Of a stretch of DNA of 63,862 nt, positions 51,593-63,688 are shown piece by piece. The position numbers were made by a program, and so were the translations under genes. Under the pieces are notes generated by a model. The model was not told the DNA's origin and made no database searches. It saw only the letters and a list, made by a program, of their open reading frames with translations. Source of the stretch: Candidatus Caldarchaeum subterraneum (GTDB lineage: Archaea > Thermoproteota > Nitrososphaeria_A > Caldarchaeales > Caldarchaeaceae); assembly GCA_937934305.1 (NCBI GenBank), contig CALHAG010000002.1, positions 206,192-270,053 on the forward strand, written 5' to 3'. Each line of letters begins with the position of its first letter. The stretch's first letter is position 1.

Positions 51593-52327
51593 TCACGGAC
51601 TCGATTTGCTGGCAACTTCTTTCAGCATCTTCAAAGCCTCCAACAGCATCTCCCGCGTCTCCCTCGAATCACGTGCAACAACCTCCAGAATCTCCATACT
51701 CCTCTTGCTCTGCTCCGTCAAAGCCTCCAGAACCCTCGTAACCCTCTCAACAAAAGCATCCATCCTGTTAACGAACTCTCTAAACTCCATCCGATAATCC
51801 CTGAACTCATCACGAAAATCTCTGAACTCGTTCCTGAAATCATTGAACTCACCCCTAAACTCACGAAACTCACCCCTAAAGTCACGAAATTCATTCCTGA
51901 AGTCACGAAACTCTCCCCTAAAATCTCGAAACTCGTTTCTGTAGTCTCTAAATTCTCCCCTATAGTTTCGGAATTCCTCCCAATATGTGTAGAATATTGC
52001 CTGCATGGCTCCGAAGCCTTCTTGTAGCTCGTCGGCCAGTTTGTTGTAGCGTATTTGGAAGTGTTTGAGGTTGGGCTTGGGCCTTGTCTCGGCTATCTCT
52101 ATTTTTTTGATCTTGGCTGGGGGAGGCGGGGTCTTCAAAGCCTCTATGAATCTGTTCAGCGTCTCTTCGTCGCCCTGTGCGAAGATTGTTACGGTTCCGT
52201 CTTTTTCGTTTCTCACGTAGCCCGCCAGCTCAAGCTCCTGCCCAAGCTCCAGCACATGGCGTCTGTAGCCGACGCGCTGCACTTTTCCCGCGACTTTGAG
52301 CAGGTAGGCCTTCAAAACCCTTCCCAT
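51593..52327 (-). CDS. Acylphosphatase-domain protein fused to a heptad-repeat rod
   Basis: Residues 1-90 are an acylphosphatase fold: VAGKVQRVGYRRHVLELGQELELAGYVRN has the catalytic Arg and the G-x-V-Q-x-V-G-Y-R signature, followed by DGTVTIFAQGDEE. A normal acylphosphatase ends near residue 92. Here a linker (90-116) leads to about ten 7-residue repeats of the type EFRDFRG/EFRDYRN (117-185), then a helical tail (186-244). The repeat has Phe at two positions of each seven and Arg between, so it would form a long helix or coiled coil. This fusion is new to me. It follows tRNA-Ser on the same strand. Confidence 0.8.
   Translation of the reverse strand: MGRVLKAYLLKVAGKVQRVGYRRHVLELGQELELAGYVRNEKDGTVTIFAQGDEETLNRFIEALKTPPPPAKIKKIEIAETRPKPNLKHFQIRYNKLADELQEGFGAMQAIFYTYWEEFRNYRGEFRDYRNEFRDFRGEFRDFRNEFRDFRGEFREFRGEFNDFRNEFRDFRDEFRDYRMEFREFVNRMDAFVERVTRVLEALTEQSKRSMEILEVVARDSRETREMLLEALKMLKEVASKSSP
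51773..51979 (-). repeat. 21-bp tandem repeat encoding EFRDFRG-type heptads
   Basis: About ten imperfect 21-bp units lie within the acylphosphatase-fusion gene. Each encodes E-F-R-(D/N/E)-(F/Y)-R-(G/N/D). Codon variation among units shows protein-level selection, not a fresh duplication. Confidence 0.85.
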
Positions 52328-52362
52328 ACTCGTAACAACGGGCTAAAAAGTGTTGTAATGCG

Positions 52363-52459
52363 CGCCGGGGGTGGGATTTGAACCCACGAGGCCTTGCGGC
52401 CACGGGCTTTCATGTCTTGTCTCAAGGCCCGCCCCTTATCCTGGCTTGGGTACCCCGGC
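52363..52459 (-). tRNA. tRNA-Ser (anticodon TGA) with a 12-nt anticodon-loop intron
   Basis: Acceptor GCCGGGG/CCCCGGC with discriminator G (serine identity), long variable arm GGCC-GCAA-GGCC, T arm GTGGG/CCCAC with TTCAAAT. The anticodon stem CGGGC/GCCCG encloses a loop enlarged by 12 nt; removing them leaves CTTGAGA, anticodon TGA. Intron at the standard 37/38 position. Confidence 0.9.
52409..52420 (-). other. 12-nt canonical-position tRNA intron
   Basis: It lies between positions 37 and 38. Bulges AGA and AAA place cuts at both ends; the central helix CTTG/CATG has one T-T mismatch and there is no inner helix, so this is a minimal relaxed BHB. Confidence 0.75.
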
Positions 52460-53791: not shown

Positions 53792-53844
53792 AGTGTTAAA
53801 TGGGTTGGGATTGCTTATTAGGGTGCTGCGGAATGATTGTTGGG

Positions 53845-54246
53845 ATGGTTCGGCGTGATGAGGTGGAGGTGTTGAGGCGTAGGGGTGTGGAGTTTCTTGA
53901 GATGGCTGAGAAAGCATTGGCAGACAAGAAGGTTGACTTGGCGTGTTTTATGCTGGAGCAGGCTGCCCAGCTCTACCTCAAGTCCGCTCTTCTCAAACTA
54001 GTCGGAGAATATAGCAGGACTCATAGCCTGAGGCGTCTCGTGTGGGAGCTGGCCGAGGCTTCGAAAGACGATGAGCTGAGAAAGTTTGGAGAAGAGAGGA
54101 GAAATCTTCTCTCGAGTTTGGAGGATGTCTACATTATGTCGAGGTATTTTCCGAAGGAATATTCCGAGAGGGATGCGGCGGAGTTTTTAGAAATTGTCCG
54201 CGAGTTGTTTGTGGTGGTCGGCAGGGTGGCGGGTTTCCCAGCATGA
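53845..54246 (+). CDS. HEPN-domain protein (HEPN/MNT pair)
   Basis: A helical protein of about 133 aa. EFLEMAEKALADKKVDLACFMLEQAAQLYLKSALLKLVGEY is the HEPN core, followed by EDVYIMSRYFPKEYSERDAAEFL where the family has its Arg/Tyr-rich active segment. HEPN partners of MNT proteins are toxin RNases or act as substrates of MNT. ATG at 53845 is preferred; 53833 is possible. The stop overlaps the MNT start by 4 nt (ATGA). Confidence 0.85.
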   Translation: MVRRDEVEVLRRRGVEFLEMAEKALADKKVDLACFMLEQAAQLYLKSALLKLVGEYSRTHSLRRLVWELAEASKDDELRKFGEERRNLLSSLEDVYIMSRYFPKEYSERDAAEFLEIVRELFVVVGRVAGFPA

Positions 54247-54578
54247 TGGAGAGTGCGCGTAGGAGGGCTGAGATGGTTAGGCACTGGAGAGAATATGTCG
54301 GGGTGTTGGCTGAGGCTGTTAGAAAGGTTTTGGGGGATGCGGATGTGTATGTGTTTGGCAGCGTTGTCACGGGAGAGAGTGTGGCTTCGAGCGATGTGGA
54401 TGTCCTGATTGTCTCCGAAAGGGTTCCAGAGTCGATGCTTGAACGCGGTGCCTTGAAGGTGGAGGTTGAACGGGTCGCGGAGCTTCCCGTCTACCATCCC
54501 TTCGAGCTTCACATCGTCAGGCCCGATGAAGCCGAGCACTATTTCAAGAAAATTGGGCGAAACATGTTGAAGGTTTAG
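54243..54578 (+). CDS. MNT-type nucleotidyltransferase (HEPN/MNT pair)
   Basis: A 111-aa minimal nucleotidyltransferase. VYVFGSVVTGESVASSDVDVLIV contains the GS-x-D-x-D signature with both metal Asp residues. MNT proteins adenylylate the HEPN partner and so neutralise it. The pair resembles type VII toxin-antitoxin modules. The last 4 nt overlap the convergent surface-protein gene. Confidence 0.9.
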   Translation: MMESARRRAEMVRHWREYVGVLAEAVRKVLGDADVYVFGSVVTGESVASSDVDVLIVSERVPESMLERGALKVEVERVAELPVYHPFELHIVRPDEAEHYFKKIGRNMLKV

Positions 54579-55639
54579 TACCACTGGTCTTCTTCGCCGA
54601 CGACTGTTTGGCTTCTTCTTCTCATTATGATTGTTGCGGCGACGGCGAGGACGGCTATGCCGGTTACGGTGCTGTAGACTATGAGCTGGGCTGTTTCACG
54701 TGAGAGGCTGGGTGTGGTGATTTCTGTGGTTGTTTCTATGGGGGTTGTGGTGGCTGTCGTGGTTGTTGACGTGGTTACTTCGTTGATTGTTAGGGTTATG
54801 GTGTATGGTCCTCCTCCACCTACTCCGCCCTGGTTAGCCACCCTTAGGTAGTAGGTTTTCTCACCTGTGTCCTGTGTCTCCAGATTCACCGCCGCTTCAC
54901 CGTTGGTGTTTGTTCTGTTGCTTCTGAGCCCGTAGCCTGTCTGGTCGAGGATGGCGAATTCATAGATGTTTCCGGGCCGTGTCGACAATGTGGCGGTCAA
55001 CTGTTTCCCTTTCCCGAGAACAGCTGTGAAGACATATGTGTCTATGTAGTCTAGTCCTTCGCTGGAGTTGGTTAAGTAGCCTGAGATGATGGTTGTTTCC
55101 CCTGTTCTCAACATTCCCAGCGAGGTTGCTTTTTCGAGTTTGTCAGCGGCTTCTCTTCCGCCAGCGTCCATATATCGCTCGATTCCCAGGGTGATTACGT
55201 AGTCGGCTTTGGCGGGCCTCGCTTCAGAGAATATTCCTATTTTGAAGCAGAGCGTGGTTGGAGTGTTTTCGCCGAAGTTGCTGTGCACCCAGCTGTAGTC
55301 ATAGTTCCGCGGGCCTCCTCCCTGGATGGTCTGCTCCCCGCCTATTCGGGTGAACTGGCTGGGCCTTATCTCCCACATCAGCAACGTGTTCAACCCTGTG
55401 GAGGTGTTTGTGGTAACCGTGACTCTGAGGACTAGGCGTTCACCGGGTCGCAGGTTCTCGAACCTGTAAAAATCCTCTCTCAGCCTTCCGGCTAAAGTGC
55501 CTTCTATGGGCAGAAGCGTGTCTCCGGCCAGGTTTACACGTTTATCTGTTGTGATACAGGGGTCGCTTGTCTGAGCGGATGCAATGGTTAAGACGGCTAA
55601 TAGGAGAACAGCTGTGAGAATGGTTGCTGTTTCACGCAT
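54575..55639 (-). CDS. Secreted, membrane-anchored surface protein with Thr-rich stalk
   Basis: A 354-aa protein with a signal peptide (about 1-22, cleaved near ASAQT), an extracellular region rich in beta-strand with pre-peptidase-like or carbohydrate-binding-like repeats (GDTLLPIEGTLAGRLREDFYRFENLRPGERLVLRV and a second similar copy near 175), then a Thr-rich stalk (about 287-312) and a C-terminal membrane helix (about 320-342) with a basic end (RRRSQ). It is 133 nt downstream of the giant surface protein on the same strand, so the two may form one envelope unit. Confidence 0.78.
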   Translation of the reverse strand: MRETATILTAVLLLAVLTIASAQTSDPCITTDKRVNLAGDTLLPIEGTLAGRLREDFYRFENLRPGERLVLRVTVTTNTSTGLNTLLMWEIRPSQFTRIGGEQTIQGGGPRNYDYSWVHSNFGENTPTTLCFKIGIFSEARPAKADYVITLGIERYMDAGGREAADKLEKATSLGMLRTGETTIISGYLTNSSEGLDYIDTYVFTAVLGKGKQLTATLSTRPGNIYEFAILDQTGYGLRSNRTNTNGEAAVNLETQDTGEKTYYLRVANQGGVGGGGPYTITLTINEVTTSTTTTATTTPIETTTEITTPSLSRETAQLIVYSTVTGIAVLAVAATIIMRRRSQTVVGEEDQWY

Positions 55640-55772: not shown

Positions 55773-58700
55773 TTATTTCTTTGGTGGTGCTGCTGGGTAG
55801 ATTCCGAGACGGCGTCCTCTCCAGCGGATGTATTCGCTGACGATGACGACGATGACGATGACCAGCAGTATGAGGCCGATGATCAACGCGAGGAACGTGG
55901 CGAGGGTCATGGGTACACCTAGTACGACGGTGTAGAGGTCGAGGACGAGCGTCGCGCTTCTAGTGCCTCTGGCTACGTTGGCTGAGCTGCTGAATTGTTC
56001 GTAGCTGGCTTTGACCGAATAGTCTGCGCCTACGACTTTGGAGAAGACGGCTGATCCGCTGGCGTCTGTGGCTGCTGTGGCTACTGTTGTTCCACCTCTC
56101 TGCAGCTCAACGATGGCACCCTGTATCGGCTGTCCAGCTGCGCCTTTGACGAGGACTGTGATGTCGTAAACGCCTGCCTGTATGGTTGCTGATGTCCGGG
56201 ATGCGGTGAACCTTACACGGTCTCCGCCGATTGTTGTGCCGTCTTTGGTAACCTCTATCTGGTATTCGTTGTCGAGCGGTACCTGTCCGATGATGATGAT
56301 GCCCTGGCTGTCTGTTGTGCCTACTTGTTGTCCGGCGAACCTGATGGCTGCGCCTGCTACAGGTCTTCCGTCAAAGTCGACGACTGTCAGGGTTACGTCG
56401 TCTACTGGCAGGGTTATGCTGCCTCTGCTCTGTAGGCCTGCTGGGGTTTCTCTGACAGCTGCTCTGGCTGTTGTTCCGAATGGGCTTGTCCACTCTACCG
56501 TGAAGTCGTAGGTTCTGCCGTCGGGTATGCGGAGTATTGTGAAGATGCTGTCGGGTCTAAGCTGGATGTCTTCGTCTCTGACAAGGTCGGGTGAGACGCT
56601 TACTCTGGCTCCGGATAGTGGTCTGCCCTGTCTATCGACGACGTTGAAGCTGACGTCTCTGAGGGCGAGGACGACTGTTCCTTCTACTGTTCCGACGTTG
56701 GTTGTGCTGATGTCGAAGGTTCTTCTGCCGACTTCTTCACCGTTTGCGTCGGGCCAGAGGGCTACGATGTCGTAGGAGCTTCTTGCTAGGCGTTTGGCTT
56801 CGAAGATTGCTCCTTGTCCACGTATGATGAATGCGTCGGATAGGGCTAGGCTGGGTGCGCTGAATACGTAGGCCGGGTCGGCTGGTCTCTGGGCGTCTCC
56901 GTAGACGAACCGCACTCTTAGGTCGAAGATGCGTGTGATGACGTCGAAGCTTCTACCCCATCCTGCCGGCGGGCAGCTGGCGAAGCTCTCGGTAATCGAT
57001 ATGCTCAGCGGCCTCTGGTCAAAGACATATCCTACGCCGGATATGTATATCCATTGTCCGCCATAATATTCGTACCAGTGGTCGCCAACCAGTGAACAGA
57101 CTTCTGCACCGAGCCACCCGGGTCCGTTGGGCCATGGGCCTGCTTCTGCGGTGTATGCGAAGCCAAGCGGTATGTCGGGTTTCTGGGTTTCCTGTGTGGT
57201 TTCGTCGTCTCTGCTGTCGTAGGCTATTGGCCATCTTGCGAAGCTGTTGACTGGCCATGTGGGTTCTCCGTTGGCGCCCTGTCCGAGGTAGAGGACTCTC
57301 TGTATGAAGACTCCTCCGGGCTTTCTGATGGGCATGGGCACTATTCTGCCGTCGGGTCCTGCGTAGCTCCATGCGGCGGATTTGCCTGTCTGAGCGTCGA
57401 TGATCTGGTAGAATGCTCCGGGCAGTGGCCTTCCGTTGAAGTCTGTGATTCTGGCTGAGACGTTCTGGAACTCGAACATCTTGATGAAGGGTCTGTGTGC
57501 TCTGTTGTCGGGGTCGTTGCTCCACGCTATCACGGTTGTTTCACGTGCGACGCCTTCATATGGTCTGCCGTAGCCCATGTACTGTATGCCGAGGTCGACT
57601 CCCGGTATCTGTTGCTGGTCGCCGACGTGTAGGTTAACGGGCTGTCCGGTTATCGGGTCGATGGCTTGGCTGACCCAGTTTCTCCAGTAGTTGCTGGTTG
57701 TTCCTCTGTTGGGGTTGTCTGCGCCTGCTTGTCCTGTGCCGTCGTTGTACCATATGCTCGGTGGTGGCGAGACCTCATCGATTACAAGAGAGCTATTGCC
57801 CCAGATGACTGTCGAGGGTGTGTCTCCGCTGGTGACTGTTACGAGTCCTACGGGTTTGCCGGCGAGGCATACGTTGACTGTCTTGTCTCCTATGGTGATG
57901 GTTCCAGGTGTGGTTACGGCGTCGATGGTTCTTGGTCCGAATGTTGCGCCTAGTGGTGGTACTATTCTGCCTTTGACGATGTAGCCGACGAGTGGTCCGC
58001 AGTCGTATGTTCCGAGCTCAAGGTCTCCTACCTGCCAGAAGACTGGGATGTCGACGTCGGTGGCGTTGAGCTTGATGGCGACGACTTTGCTTCCTGGTGC
58101 GGGTGTGGCTGTCCATGTCCTGGTTAGTGCGTAGCCGGGTATGGGCTGGAAGATGCCTACCGCGTCGGGTCCACGGTAGTAGGTGATGTCGAAGGGCGGG
58201 TGTCCGAAGAGCATCCACGCGAATCTGAAGACCGGTACCGAGGTGTCGCCTGTGCTGAGTCTTGTCCAGACGAGCTCGTAGTGGTCTCCTGCAGCCGGCT
58301 GTGGAGCGGGTCTGCTCCATGCGCCGCTACCGTATTGTGGCAGGGATGGATCGATTGGCAGCTGGTCGCTCCATACGCTGATGCGGTACTGTATTCTGGC
58401 GTTCTCTGTGAAGCTTAGGGCGCGGTAGTAGCCTGTGGGCACTGGGTTGTATGGCCACCCGTCAATGGGTGCTCCGTCGCTGTAGCTTGGGTAGGGTATG
58501 TCCCATGTCTTGGTTATCTCGTCGTAGACCCATCTGCCTTCGTCTGAGTCAAAGACGAGGTCCCAGTCGGTTCTTGTGAACCGTTCGCTGGTTGGTAGCC
58601 ATGGCAAGGTGAGCTGCCCTGTTGTCCATTTGGCTGCTCCACGGGTTTCGGGGACTGCTGTGTAGGTCCATGTCTTGCGGGCGTGGTCGACGGTTATCCT

Positions 58701-61700
58701 GCCTGGGAAGACAGTTCCGCCGTCGGTGACGTTGAACCACCATATTCTTGCATAGAGGTCTTTGACGGGTCTGTCTTTGTTGGCGCTTATGGCGAGGACG
58801 AAGGTTACGTCGGCGATGGCGACTTTGTCAACCGAGTAGCCTCTCTTGGTGAGGTTGAAGGCGTCTTTGTAGACGATGCTGCTGTTGAGGTACCAGTAGA
58901 CGGTCAACGTGTAGTTAACAACCGGGGAGCCTAGGATGTTCTCCATCGCCTCCTGAGTTGGATAGAGGAGTGTGAGGTTGCCATTGGCTCCTGTCTTGTA
59001 GAGAACCGATGAGCTTCTCTCCACGGTTCCGCTATCATCGTAGTATACATCGAGTTGGGCCACTGCGTATGGTATGGGTCTTGCGAGGTCTTCGTCTTTG
59101 AGGTTGAGGGTTATGAAGCCCACGGGTATCGGCACGGTGAGGACTTGTTTCTCGAAGACGAGGCTGTAGGGTCTTGTCGGAACCTCTGGCACGAGGCCGT
59201 CAGCTACCGCCTGCTCCCATCTCCATCTCTGCTGGTTCCAGAGGCCTTCGCTGCCGACGACTGTGAAGTTGTGTGTCGGGTTCTTGCCGTTGGCCTCCTC
59301 GTCTGTCGTGACGTTGAAGAACTCGGTTATGAGGAAGCTGTCGCCTGGTCTAACATCTCCTCCTGGACTGGTTATAGGTCCTTCCTGCGTTGTCAGCCAT
59401 CCGTCTCCTGTTAGGCCTACTCTGTTGTAGAATCTTGCCCATGGCTGTTCGCCTCTGGTGAACTCGAGTGGGTAGACGTAGTCGTAGAACTGGAGGTCTT
59501 GTTTTCTGTAGGTGCCGTTCCACCAGATGTTGCTGCTGTGCTGGCTTTCGGCTTTGAGCCATGTGGTTAGGAGTGTGTCTTCGGTCCATTTGCTTACGAA
59601 GAGTGATGAGAATACTCCTTCCTCGGGTATGTACATCTCCATCTGGACGCCGTTGTCGTTGACTATGTGGTAGGTGGCGTTGCCTATGCGGCGGGCTTCG
59701 TTGAGGTAGTCGAAGTCGCCGTCGACGATGCGCTGGTAGAAGGTGTGGGCCCATGTCAGTAGGTCAATCTCAACGGGCCCGCATGTGTTGTATAGTGTGG
59801 CGTTGCCGATTGGGTTGAGGCTTGGGTCTGTGACGAACTGGCCGTTCCATGTCATGTAGACTCTGAGGACAACCCTGTCGTTGATGGTTGCAGGTGTGTT
59901 TCTAACTTTTGGTGCGCTGCTGTGGCTTGTCCAGTCTATCTTGATTTCGTAGTCGACGGGTACTGTTCTGCCTGGCCATTTGCTGTTGCCCGGTGTCTGC
60001 TCAGTCTCAGGGTCTCCTGTTGTCACGGTTGTTACTGTTATGTTGTAGAATGTGCTGGGCATCTTGTAGAAGACGTAGCGGACGTCTGCGTATGTCTTGA
60101 GTCCGCGTGAAGTAGATTTTCCGCCGTAGAAGTGGTCGATTCTGTAGCTGAGGAACTGGCTGACTGACTTCGTTGTATTGAATTTGACTGGGTTGGTGTC
60201 GCCTGTTGGGTCCATTGTTTCGAGGAAGTATAGGCGGCTGCCTGTGAGCGGGTGTACACCCACCCATGTTAGGGTGATGTTGAGACGTGGTATTTTGTTG
60301 TCCTGGTTGAAGTCCCATGTGGTGAATATGAAGTCGTTGATGAGGGCTGTGAGTTTGATTGGTGAGTCGATGTTGCTGTCGACTGTGAAGGTGAGGCTGC
60401 CGTCGGGGTTGAGGGATAGGCTGCGGTCGCCTATCCGTGCTTCTGTGAACTTGACCCATACACCTTTCCACCAGACGCCGTCGATTGTGTATTCTCCTCC
60501 GGCGAGGTATCCGAAGTCGAGGGCTCCTGTGCTGTCGAGCTGTGTTACATAGGGTGTCGCTGGAGACGGTGGAATGACTTTGACGAAGGCTTCTCTGGAG
60601 AGTGGGCTGTCTACGCAGTCGACGAATGTTAGCTTGACTTTGTAGATGCGGAGGACGAGGTCCTCCATTATGGTGTGTGTGAGCTTGTCGACGGTGGCTT
60701 CTCCGACGGGTGTGCCGTCGAAGGTGACGGTGACCATGTATGCGAGGTCTTCGGGCAGCTGGTAGAATACTGCCCATCCTTCGCCGTGCTGGTCATAGCT
60801 CCACTGTAGGCCTCCTGTGCTTGGGAAGAAGTCGGGTATGGTGTCTGCTCCTCTCTTGGTTATGGGTGGGCCGTTGCCGCGCTGGAGGGTTATGGCTGTG
60901 TTGGCGGCTGGAGCGGGGTTGCCCAAGTTGTCAACAAGCCTGTAAGCAAGGTCGTGGACGTTAGCGGTGATGAAGACGTGGCCGCTTCTGGCCACTGCTA
61001 TGTCAGGGGCTTTGTGAGGTGCTAGAGGTGTTAGCTCTAGCGCGTTTCTGCTGGCGACCAAGAAGCTCAGGAACACCCCGGTAAACCCTGCGGGGAAGCC
61101 GTCACGTATCAATGCGCCGCCGGTGTAGTCATTGAATATGAAAAAGTCTATGTTATATCCGCTGAGCAGGAATCTGAAGGTGCCGGTGCCGGGTGGACCT
61201 GGCCAGAACTCAATCTCCGCTACACCTGTTTGTCCATCAGCTCTCACACCATCTCCTGCCACGATGTCACCGCTGGAGTCGGTCACGCCGTCAGGGCCTG
61301 TGTCGATGCTTGTTCCTAAGAATGGCTGGTTGTTTACTCTGGCGAAGTATGCGTTGGTTTTGGCGTCATGGAACTTAATCGATGCATACACCCCTGTAAT
61401 TTCTTGGGACGGGCCTGGTAGGGACCCTATTCGTGTCGCGTTGTCCACTATGTAGACAGTGACATCAAATGGGTCATAGTTCGAAACTCTTATGTCATAT
61501 CTTGCTGGTGATGAACTGTCTGCTGGAGGAACATAGTTTGCTAATGAGATGTTGAATGGGCTGGCGCTGCTTAGCATAAGTGTTACTGGGCCTTGGACGT
61601 TTTTGCCTGTGCCAAGGAGGTTGTTGAACACTCTATTGTCGTGTATTCTGATTAGTACCGTGTTGTTTCCATAGGTGACGCTTGGTGCTATCCAGCCTGT

Positions 61701-63665
61701 AATGGTTGTGGAGTTGGTTAACGCTATTGCATAGGGGTTGCGTACTCTTACGCTGTCAACGAGGACAGCTGTTCCGCCGTAGCCGTTTCTGCTTCCGCCT
61801 TTCCACTTGACCTGTATCTCGAAGCCTCCCCATCTCGGGTCGTCGCTGAGGGTTCGTGTCTTCATGTAGGTGATTTCGGGGATGAGGGCGCTCCAGTTTC
61901 TGCCCGCGTTTATCCATGGTCCCTGCCAGCTTCCGCCCCATGCCTGTTCAAAGTATCCGCCTGGTCTCCATGCGGGTGAGGCGTCATCTGCTGGGTTGAA
62001 GAAGTAGCTGGCGTTGAGGCTTCCTCTAAGGCTCCAGTTGGTTCCGTTGGGGAAGCGTCCAAACTTGCTGTACTGGTTTAGGTAGCCTGGCCATTTGTGG
62101 GGGTCGTCGGTGCAGCCGTCGCTGCCTGTTGTGTGTATGCTGTGGGCGAGGTAGTAGGGTGCGTTGGCTGATGTCTTGAAGTTGAGGGTGACCTCCGCAC
62201 CCACCATTTTATCGCCTATCCATGGGTGCTGGATGGCAAGGTCAGCGTCCTGGACACAGAATCTCGCGTAGAAGACCGTGTTGTTGTTAAAGTTAGCAAC
62301 ATTCGTCTGGTTAAGAGTGACCCACGGCAAACCGTCAAGACCACTACTGACGGTAACGGTGTGGTTCAACGCTATGCTGAGGGGGCCTGCTGGAACACCG
62401 GTTATGCCTCCCTGAGTCCTCGTCGGGTTAGTAGATGGAACGGCCGGGAAAGCTCCGAATCCCGGAGCTGTCTTAACTGTTCCTCCGAAGTTACTGATGT
62501 AGGTGTTGGAGCCGTTGTATTCCCTTCCTATGTAGAAGGTCTGGTTGGTGAGAACTGTCTCCCACCAGACACGCTTAGTGGCGTTGAGGTGAGGAGCCCC
62601 CACCGGGATGTTACTAGTCGGGGCTCCTATTCCTCCGTGGAATGCTGTTCTGTTCTGGAGATTGAGGATTTGCAGCGGTATGGGGACGAGCCTGTTCTGG
62701 GCGAACTTGCCTGTTCCCACGCCCGCAGACCTTGGATAGATTTCGCGGGTGTATCTGCTCTGTCCATCATTTCCGGTTATCGCCGCCTGTATAAGCGACT
62801 GGGTCGAGCTGGCGTCTGTGTGGTCTGTGTCGTAGATGAAGATGGTGGCGTAGGTTAGGTTATCTTTGACACCATACCATGTGTGCTCGTGGAAGACCTT
62901 GAACATGTAAGCAGCACGCGCAACCCACGCTCTTCCAGGAGTGCTAAAGTTACCCGCAAACCACTTCGGGTCATAACCTGTTCCGGTCGCATTGTCTAGG
63001 AAATCTACAGGACCAGACTTGTAGCCTGCACGAGGCAGATTGAAGTCAAAGTTCACGCCAGGGCCCGTGGGATGTATGTCCCATAATCCATCGTCGTTGA
63101 GCGTAACATTCGCTCCGTACGGGATGGTTGTAAATGGAGCTCCGATGAGCGCGTGTTTAAACCTCTCTGTCGCGTTCACTGTCAACCAATAAACAATGAT
63201 TCCGCTGAAGGGGGTTCCTCCGCTTATACATTCACCCTGATAGCTCCTCGCCTTAACGATAACCGTCAAGTTATCCCAGCCACTCGGCCACTGAATTTGA
63301 ATGAATCCTGTGCCGTTAGGCCTATCGGTTACAGGCGCAACTGGACCTTCCCAAGTCAAGTTGCCCAGAAGATTGCGAGGCCAATTCGGGTTAGTGAAAT
63401 CGTGGTCTGTTCTCGGATTCTTGAACCGATACACCTCGACACAGACATTGGTCACGTTATATCTCTCAGCAAAATCTGTGCCAGTCGGCAAAACAGGAGA
63501 GATTCCTCCTGTGCTAGGGTTACCTTTCCACGCGCTCGTCACTATTTTGAGCCATGCGGTGTGGTTGGTCTGCGCAAACGCCGGCGAAACAATCGCTGCC
63601 CCAAGGAAAGCCGTCGGAAGCGCTAGCAGCAAAGCTAGCAAAACTGCTTGACTTTTTCCAATCAT
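55773..63665 (-). CDS. Giant cell-surface protein (S-layer candidate), about 2630 aa
   Basis: N-terminal signal peptide (about 1-32, ending AFAQT), a very large extracellular region and a C-terminal membrane helix (about 2590-2615) with a basic tail (RWRGRRLGIYP). N-x-S/T glycosylation sites are frequent. The last 700 residues hold repeated carboxypeptidase-regulatory/Ig-like units with the pattern DVSFNVVDRQGRPLSGA, DVTLTVVDFDGRPVAGA and DITVLVKGAAGQPIQGA. Composition is Trp/Gly/Pro/Asn-rich and Lys-poor. The ATG at 63665 follows a TATA box by about 28 nt, GTG 63668 is possible. Size, topology and a strong promoter fit an S-layer subunit; an adhesin is the alternative. Confidence 0.85.
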   Translation of the reverse strand: MIGKSQAVLLALLLALPTAFLGAAIVSPAFAQTNHTAWLKIVTSAWKGNPSTGGISPVLPTGTDFAERYNVTNVCVEVYRFKNPRTDHDFTNPNWPRNLLGNLTWEGPVAPVTDRPNGTGFIQIQWPSGWDNLTVIVKARSYQGECISGGTPFSGIIVYWLTVNATERFKHALIGAPFTTIPYGANVTLNDDGLWDIHPTGPGVNFDFNLPRAGYKSGPVDFLDNATGTGYDPKWFAGNFSTPGRAWVARAAYMFKVFHEHTWYGVKDNLTYATIFIYDTDHTDASSTQSLIQAAITGNDGQSRYTREIYPRSAGVGTGKFAQNRLVPIPLQILNLQNRTAFHGGIGAPTSNIPVGAPHLNATKRVWWETVLTNQTFYIGREYNGSNTYISNFGGTVKTAPGFGAFPAVPSTNPTRTQGGITGVPAGPLSIALNHTVTVSSGLDGLPWVTLNQTNVANFNNNTVFYARFCVQDADLAIQHPWIGDKMVGAEVTLNFKTSANAPYYLAHSIHTTGSDGCTDDPHKWPGYLNQYSKFGRFPNGTNWSLRGSLNASYFFNPADDASPAWRPGGYFEQAWGGSWQGPWINAGRNWSALIPEITYMKTRTLSDDPRWGGFEIQVKWKGGSRNGYGGTAVLVDSVRVRNPYAIALTNSTTITGWIAPSVTYGNNTVLIRIHDNRVFNNLLGTGKNVQGPVTLMLSSASPFNISLANYVPPADSSSPARYDIRVSNYDPFDVTVYIVDNATRIGSLPGPSQEITGVYASIKFHDAKTNAYFARVNNQPFLGTSIDTGPDGVTDSSGDIVAGDGVRADGQTGVAEIEFWPGPPGTGTFRFLLSGYNIDFFIFNDYTGGALIRDGFPAGFTGVFLSFLVASRNALELTPLAPHKAPDIAVARSGHVFITANVHDLAYRLVDNLGNPAPAANTAITLQRGNGPPITKRGADTIPDFFPSTGGLQWSYDQHGEGWAVFYQLPEDLAYMVTVTFDGTPVGEATVDKLTHTIMEDLVLRIYKVKLTFVDCVDSPLSREAFVKVIPPSPATPYVTQLDSTGALDFGYLAGGEYTIDGVWWKGVWVKFTEARIGDRSLSLNPDGSLTFTVDSNIDSPIKLTALINDFIFTTWDFNQDNKIPRLNITLTWVGVHPLTGSRLYFLETMDPTGDTNPVKFNTTKSVSQFLSYRIDHFYGGKSTSRGLKTYADVRYVFYKMPSTFYNITVTTVTTGDPETEQTPGNSKWPGRTVPVDYEIKIDWTSHSSAPKVRNTPATINDRVVLRVYMTWNGQFVTDPSLNPIGNATLYNTCGPVEIDLLTWAHTFYQRIVDGDFDYLNEARRIGNATYHIVNDNGVQMEMYIPEEGVFSSLFVSKWTEDTLLTTWLKAESQHSSNIWWNGTYRKQDLQFYDYVYPLEFTRGEQPWARFYNRVGLTGDGWLTTQEGPITSPGGDVRPGDSFLITEFFNVTTDEEANGKNPTHNFTVVGSEGLWNQQRWRWEQAVADGLVPEVPTRPYSLVFEKQVLTVPIPVGFITLNLKDEDLARPIPYAVAQLDVYYDDSGTVERSSSVLYKTGANGNLTLLYPTQEAMENILGSPVVNYTLTVYWYLNSSIVYKDAFNLTKRGYSVDKVAIADVTFVLAISANKDRPVKDLYARIWWFNVTDGGTVFPGRITVDHARKTWTYTAVPETRGAAKWTTGQLTLPWLPTSERFTRTDWDLVFDSDEGRWVYDEITKTWDIPYPSYSDGAPIDGWPYNPVPTGYYRALSFTENARIQYRISVWSDQLPIDPSLPQYGSGAWSRPAPQPAAGDHYELVWTRLSTGDTSVPVFRFAWMLFGHPPFDITYYRGPDAVGIFQPIPGYALTRTWTATPAPGSKVVAIKLNATDVDIPVFWQVGDLELGTYDCGPLVGYIVKGRIVPPLGATFGPRTIDAVTTPGTITIGDKTVNVCLAGKPVGLVTVTSGDTPSTVIWGNSSLVIDEVSPPPSIWYNDGTGQAGADNPNRGTTSNYWRNWVSQAIDPITGQPVNLHVGDQQQIPGVDLGIQYMGYGRPYEGVARETTVIAWSNDPDNRAHRPFIKMFEFQNVSARITDFNGRPLPGAFYQIIDAQTGKSAAWSYAGPDGRIVPMPIRKPGGVFIQRVLYLGQGANGEPTWPVNSFARWPIAYDSRDDETTQETQKPDIPLGFAYTAEAGPWPNGPGWLGAEVCSLVGDHWYEYYGGQWIYISGVGYVFDQRPLSISITESFASCPPAGWGRSFDVITRIFDLRVRFVYGDAQRPADPAYVFSAPSLALSDAFIIRGQGAIFEAKRLARSSYDIVALWPDANGEEVGRRTFDISTTNVGTVEGTVVLALRDVSFNVVDRQGRPLSGARVSVSPDLVRDEDIQLRPDSIFTILRIPDGRTYDFTVEWTSPFGTTARAAVRETPAGLQSRGSITLPVDDVTLTVVDFDGRPVAGAAIRFAGQQVGTTDSQGIIIIGQVPLDNEYQIEVTKDGTTIGGDRVRFTASRTSATIQAGVYDITVLVKGAAGQPIQGAIVELQRGGTTVATAATDASGSAVFSKVVGADYSVKASYEQFSSSANVARGTRSATLVLDLYTVVLGVPMTLATFLALIIGLILLVIVIVVIVSEYIRWRGRRLGIYPAAPPKK

Positions 63666-63688
63666 CACCCAACCCACCCCAACAACCG

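Follow-up and report, generated by a model that had tools for sequence, protein, structure and literature searches.

What does a small metabolic enzyme have to do with a long, regular array of aromatic heptads, and what structure would such an array build? The question is raised by a gene in a 63,862-nt stretch of Candidatus Caldarchaeum subterraneum (hereafter the window), whose parts are listed in Table 1. The initial annotation described the product as an acylphosphatase fused to a ten-fold EFRDFRG rod that could be a scaffold, a filament or an RNA-binding element. Judged from its sequence, the protein is rather probably an acylphosphatase carried on a homo-oligomeric coiled coil whose helices run parallel and in register around a Phe/Tyr core, that is, a natural 'phenylalanine zipper'.

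Table 1. Parts of the rod-bearing acylphosphatase gene and the adjacent tRNA gene (positions in the window; residue numbers refer to the product).
Feature	Position	Strand	Remarks
Whole gene	51593..52327	-	244 aa, ATG start; acylphosphatase head, junction, ten-heptad aromatic rod, helical tail
Acylphosphatase domain	52052..52300	-	aa 10-92; Pfam PF00708, AlphaFold2, Foldseek
Phosphate loop VQRVGYR	52262..52282	-	aa 16-22; contains catalytic Arg22
Catalytic Asn40	52208..52210	-	invariant in alignment A1
Junction DELQEGFGAMQ	52001..52033	-	aa 99-109; nearly invariant within the family, in heptad register
Ten EFR[DNE][FY]Rx heptads	51767..51976	-	aa 118-187
Helical C-terminal tail	51596..51766	-	aa 188-244; ends RDSRETREMLLEALKMLKEVASKSSP
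tRNA-Ser (AGA)	52362..52459	-	34 nt upstream of the rod gene; neighbour on the same strand

The head matches the Pfam Acylphosphatase family with an E-value of 4.9e-25 (88.1 bits against a cut-off of 22.5), and a PDB sequence search likewise identifies the same residues, 10-92, as acylphosphatase. AlphaFold2 predicts residues 1-90 with a pLDDT of about 78-93, and the predicted head has the ferredoxin-like acylphosphatase fold, its best Foldseek matches being acylphosphatases (1w2i: E 8e-10, TM-score 0.94 by target, rmsd 1.1 Å). Fold, phosphate loop and catalytic Arg/Asn are common to the rod protein and the acylphosphatases of Pyrococcus horikoshii (1w2i) and Sulfolobus solfataricus (2bjd), although the loop of the rod family carries Arg where the canonical VQGVxxR has Gly. 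R22 and N40 are both invariant in alignment A1. Since the active-site residues are intact, the rod-bearing enzyme likely keeps its catalysis, presumably the hydrolysis of acyl phosphates. The solved acylphosphatases that were found are stand-alone proteins of about 90-120 aa or the N-terminal domain of HypF, whereas the rod protein adds a helical extension of 150 aa.

This extension contains the heptads EFRNYRG EFRDYRN EFRDFRG EFRDFRN EFRDFRG EFREFRG EFNDFRN EFRDFRD EFRDYRM EFREFVN, in that order, with Phe at position a in all ten and Phe (seven) or Tyr (three) at position d. The fusion of an acylphosphatase domain to a regular aromatic seven-residue rod is thus confirmed, as is the count of exactly ten consecutive repeats. 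The unit is indeed a regular heptad, but it is better written EFRxFRx than EFRDFRG, the fifth place being F or Y and the seventh variable (G, N, D, M), and the 'alternating Arg/Glu' of the initial annotation gives way to Arg at b and e with Glu/Asp at g and c. The heptad register begins just past the enzyme, in the junction (L101 d, F105 a, M108 d, F112 a, Y115 d), and runs unbroken to about residue 203; all a/d positions from L101 to L203 are hydrophobic and all those from F112 to F185 are F or Y. Aromatic periodicity at 3.5 residues reaches a power of 4.66, against a maximum of 1.42 among 2000 shuffles. A 21-bp DNA repeat underlying the rod is detected by TRF. The heptad copies differ from one another to saturation at synonymous sites (pS about 0.9-1.0), with pN at about 0.2, indicating that the repeat is old and has been maintained for its amino acids by selection on the protein, and does not stem from recent DNA duplication.

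The repeat is also present in other genomes. Of 398 genomes sampled from the phylum, 32, spread over 14 family-level groups, gave strong matches (E 3e-40 or better) to a family profile built from nine members, and these relatives have the same head-junction-rod-tail design with 1-15 heptads. Carriers include Caldarchaeum, Geocrenenecus, Nitrososphaeria, Geothermarchaeota, Brockarchaeota and Culexmicrobium; the list of carrier genomes and that of taxon records overlap, some entries being the same assemblies. The distribution is patchy within the order itself (strong matches in 18 of 44 genomes). Some acylphosphatase domain is found in 386 of 396 genomes of the phylum, with stand-alone proteins (about 90-140 aa) or HypF-sized ones (about 760 aa) making up most of the best-scoring copies, and the rod form is an accessory extra beside these ordinary acylphosphatases. 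The tail of the window's protein resembles that of most relatives, and the closest relative's rod differs by exactly two heptads. In that relative (L006, about 1960-1985) the copy is split into two frames at a T homopolymer, by sequencing error or recent mutation, and the remaining rod is intact. A decayed remnant of an EFR-rod gene (RDFRAEFKDFRAEFEDFRTEFRDL), with no intact head, was observed at about 7990-8200 of L086. Homologues without a conserved rod had been named as what would speak against the idea of a functional rod; in the relatives the outcome is mixed, since junction and tail are kept throughout the 14 groups, but heptads fall to 1-3 in some, and in family f41 the EFR rod has largely given way to RTDANFADLKQE-type repeats. 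Neither a given length nor an exact sequence of the rod is therefore essential. No match pointing to a mobile or viral origin was found among 72,556 plasmids or in IMG/VR. A search of the open literature, with subscription papers outside its reach, returned no paper on archaeal acylphosphatase-coiled-coil fusions, and the rod-acylphosphatases form a real, conserved and apparently undescribed family.

The genome under study encodes four acylphosphatases, three of them rod-bearing and one stand-alone (L003). Beside the protein of the window, the rod-bearing ones are L002, with about three EFRDYR-type heptads, and L004, with about twenty KQDxML heptads. Two tail types recur in the family: KYGEISEKLTxILETLxxESxETREMLNETMKLLREAVEKL and RxDLKxxLDERLARLERDIAEIKARLG, the latter common to EFR-rod and KQD-rod members. 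The KQDxML, GQEKLLE and VELxEKx acylphosphatases (L004, L081, L082) follow the same head-junction-rod-tail order and have the tail ER[LI]xR[LI]ExDIAEIKxxLG in common with some EFR-rod members, whereas their heptads are non-aromatic and their enzymes fall into a separate acylphosphatase clade. In the enzyme-domain tree, EFR rods occur on two separate acylphosphatase lineages; their joint grouping was rejected (AU p=0.01) by a test of moderate strength, with 105 columns and groups named after the first tree had been seen. In one locus (L041), 1.8 kb separate a rod-type acylphosphatase from a divergent acylphosphatase that ends in the same tail. The shared tails, the rods on two lineages and this pair suggest that head, rod and tail seem to have been exchanged as modules. 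Only tentatively would we go further and propose a Phe/Tyr bundle of tunable length, with at least four parallel strands, in which the rods of the three paralogues (EFRDFR, EFRDYR, KQDxML) sort into separate assemblies while head, rod and tail are exchanged. Outside acylphosphatases, a search for rod plus tail in 61 genomes gave, fragments apart, weak matches to generic coiled coils (E above 1e-5, 10-38% identity). Several loci, namely L042 (3193-3828), L051, L059, L069, L081 and L036 (3230-4150), also encode proteins with different heptads (FEEHDRKFNEI or LWEEVRALREGQNR) close to acylphosphatase-rod genes.

As for the gene neighbourhood, the rod gene is followed after 58 nt by a zinc-dependent alcohol dehydrogenase-like gene and preceded, beyond the tRNA-Ser and on the same strand, by an RNA methyltransferase (PF02598) and an archease (PF01951), both of which recur only in the closest relatives. 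Across lineages the relatives' loci have no neighbour in common, and no conserved neighbour names a substrate. Insertion at tRNAs was considered and rejected: a predicted tRNA occurs in only 3 of 28 relatives' stretches, so the adjacency of tRNA-Ser is local synteny. Elsewhere in the window, adjacent genes at 53800-54246 and 54243-54578 read like a HEPN/nucleotidyltransferase (MNT) pair, and a giant protein of 2634 aa (55773-63677), apparently secreted and with a C-terminal membrane anchor, is followed by an anchored protein of 354 aa (54575-55639); relatives of the latter two recur in close relatives' loci. Small genes of 125-129 aa stand directly upstream of the rod gene in L041 (1858-2235), L042 (4436-4825) and L039 (4579-4965), with gaps of 47, 88 and 3 nt, respectively. 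By eye, the products of L041 and L042 are alike and that of L039 less so; no Pfam match was obtained for this small gene (L041/L042, perhaps L039), and a search run without positive control did not find it in the genome under study. In L041 (1858-7120) the small orphan gene precedes a pair of acylphosphatase-coil genes; after each of them come an AAA_15/AAA_21 ATPase gene and a DUF4276/DUF3226/OLD-TOPRIM-like gene, and the region looks like an OLD-like cassette, possibly for defence, present in duplicate. Five genomes belonging to a single genus (L073 5002-11845, L074, L076, L083, L085) carry an acylphosphatase-like gene between prolyl-tRNA synthetase and Mre11-like/Rad50-like genes. Its product is divergent (143-170 aa), with the junction DELHEGFG and a short coil; the catalytic Asn is replaced (GYVEITSEG vs GYVRNEKDG) and Arg is kept, which makes a pseudoenzyme within a cluster of DNA-repair genes probable.

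Among 182 heptads from 30 family proteins, a is Phe in 181 and d is Phe in 93, Tyr in 88 and Leu in one, counts that hold partly by construction because the search pattern demanded F/L at a and an aromatic residue, L or H at d. The other positions were free of this constraint: g is Glu in 179, b Arg/Lys in 171, c Asp/Glu in 149 and e Arg in 132, sometimes replaced by Val or Ala, with f variable, polar or Gly. The aromatic stripe is thus bordered by positive charges on one side (e, b) and negative ones on the other (g, c), and the net charges in the rod of the window are +9 at b, +9 at e, -9 at c, -10 at g and -1 at f. Intrahelical pairs are almost uniformly repulsive at i+3 (1 attractive, 18 repulsive) and i+4 (1 and 17), whereas all 26 pairs at i+5 are attractive, including nine of nine g-e' pairs; shuffled controls give 0.4-0.6 ± 4.5 net. 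Repulsion at i+3/i+4 together with attraction at g-e' favours a parallel oligomer over a single α-helix or antiparallel pairing. With F/Y instead of Leu at d in all ten heptads, the rod is not a leucine zipper, as had been remarked of it initially, but it is still a coiled coil of standard 3-4 spacing in which only the core residues are unusual, the consecutive a/d aromatics from F112 to F185 being those of a phenylalanine-zipper core. The AlphaFold2 monomer consists of two long helices, with the rod at low confidence (pLDDT 41-51). Aromatic residues occupy core positions in about 10% of coiled coils (review, PMC9698212), and the rod, with about twenty aromatic core residues in succession, stands apart from these.

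A stable single α-helix of the ER/K type, serving as a mere spacer between enzyme and tail, would account for the high Arg/Glu/Asp content, the helical prediction and the freely varying length. Nevertheless, the i+3 and i+4 pattern is the reverse of that in ER/K helices, the ER/K definition does not apply to the rod, and a continuous aromatic stripe would be left exposed, which makes this very improbable. More credible, though still unlikely, is that the stripe lies on another surface (a protein lattice, a gas-vesicle-like shell or a membrane) in place of pairing with itself. Haloarchaeal GvpC helices lie on gas vesicles in this manner, and the Pfam Halo_GVPC repeat matches the rod in two stretches (28.3 bits against a cut-off of 22.4, E 2.1e-6). 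The halobacterial repeat (PF05465) is helical with aromatics in 3-4 spacing, as is the rod, but it is a 32-position profile from a gas vesicle context and the rod has a 7-residue unit; the match probably reflects the shared F-x-x-F/Y spacing, and the charge pattern is that expected of a self-pairing parallel bundle. No match to GvpA (PF00741) was found in the same genome, nor did the control genomes give one.

A rod that builds filaments or binds nucleic acid along its length appears quite unlikely. The long regular repeat and the Arg stripe at b/e would suit it, and in genus g9 a divergent, junction-sharing relative stands between prolyl-tRNA synthetase and Mre11/Rad50-like genes; however, a Glu/Asp stripe offsets that of Arg in equal measure, and EFR-rod members have no conserved nucleic-acid neighbour across lineages. 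RNA binding in particular, as first suggested, is not borne out by the balanced charges of each heptad, and RNA-related linkage goes no further than neighbours common to close relatives. Finally, patchy presence, varying heptad number, the decayed L086 copy and the homopolymer frameshift could be taken for the neutral growth of a functionless low-complexity tract on an ordinary acylphosphatase. This notion has already been largely refuted by the codon pattern between copies and by the conservation of junction and tail, and its probability is now very small.

In the favoured parallel Phe/Tyr-cored assembly, the C-terminal helices of several copies would join through their aromatic core into a stiff parallel stalk of freely variable length, with several acylphosphatase heads side by side at one end and a bundle of the conserved tails at the opposite end. 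Oligomerisation and orientation are inferred from the charge pattern and the aromatic core; the bulky core, the e/b versus c/g charges, the likeness to Lpp-56 and coiled-coil principles would point to four or more strands. Engineered all-Phe Lpp-56 zippers were designed from a bacterial lipoprotein, and it is chiefly in designed peptides that uninterrupted Phe-core heptads have been described. One of these zippers, Lpp-56 2guv (5 chains), is the best PDB relative of the rod (E 0.0011), and the alignment with 2guv and 2gus is ungapped over 50 residues with Phe on Phe at a/d, a weak match driven largely by composition. Both have Phe at a and d of uninterrupted heptads, but Lpp-56 has no Tyr at d, no enzyme head and different charges. 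Tyr at half of the family's d positions is unusual for a fully buried core and counts against a phenylalanine-zipper bundle, as does the low confidence of the rod in the AlphaFold2 monomer. A natural counterpart, the APS/SH2B phenylalanine zipper, is a dimerisation domain with a stacked Phe core (Dhe-Paganon 2004, via PMC4634320); as far as that description goes, it belongs to a eukaryotic adaptor and has ten Phe in one domain and no tandem heptad array, unlike the rod.

The product would then be a multivalent or tethered enzyme, whose clustering might serve to bind a phosphorylated partner with avidity, to tether the enzyme at a complex or to channel an acyl phosphate; we hold this role with less confidence than the assembly itself. 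As the tail is kept while rod length varies, it is the best candidate for, and likely is, the part that binds a partner or site. Among the functions first proposed, that of a scaffold would remain the likeliest. Found naturally and widely in archaea of hot habitats, with 1-15 near-identical aromatic heptads, the family may supply coiled-coil design with a heat-stable scaffold and with a natural rule set (Phe always at a, Phe or Tyr at d, Arg at e/b, acidic residues at g/c). It is also a sign that acylphosphatase may occur in a multivalent form that has gone unrecognised.
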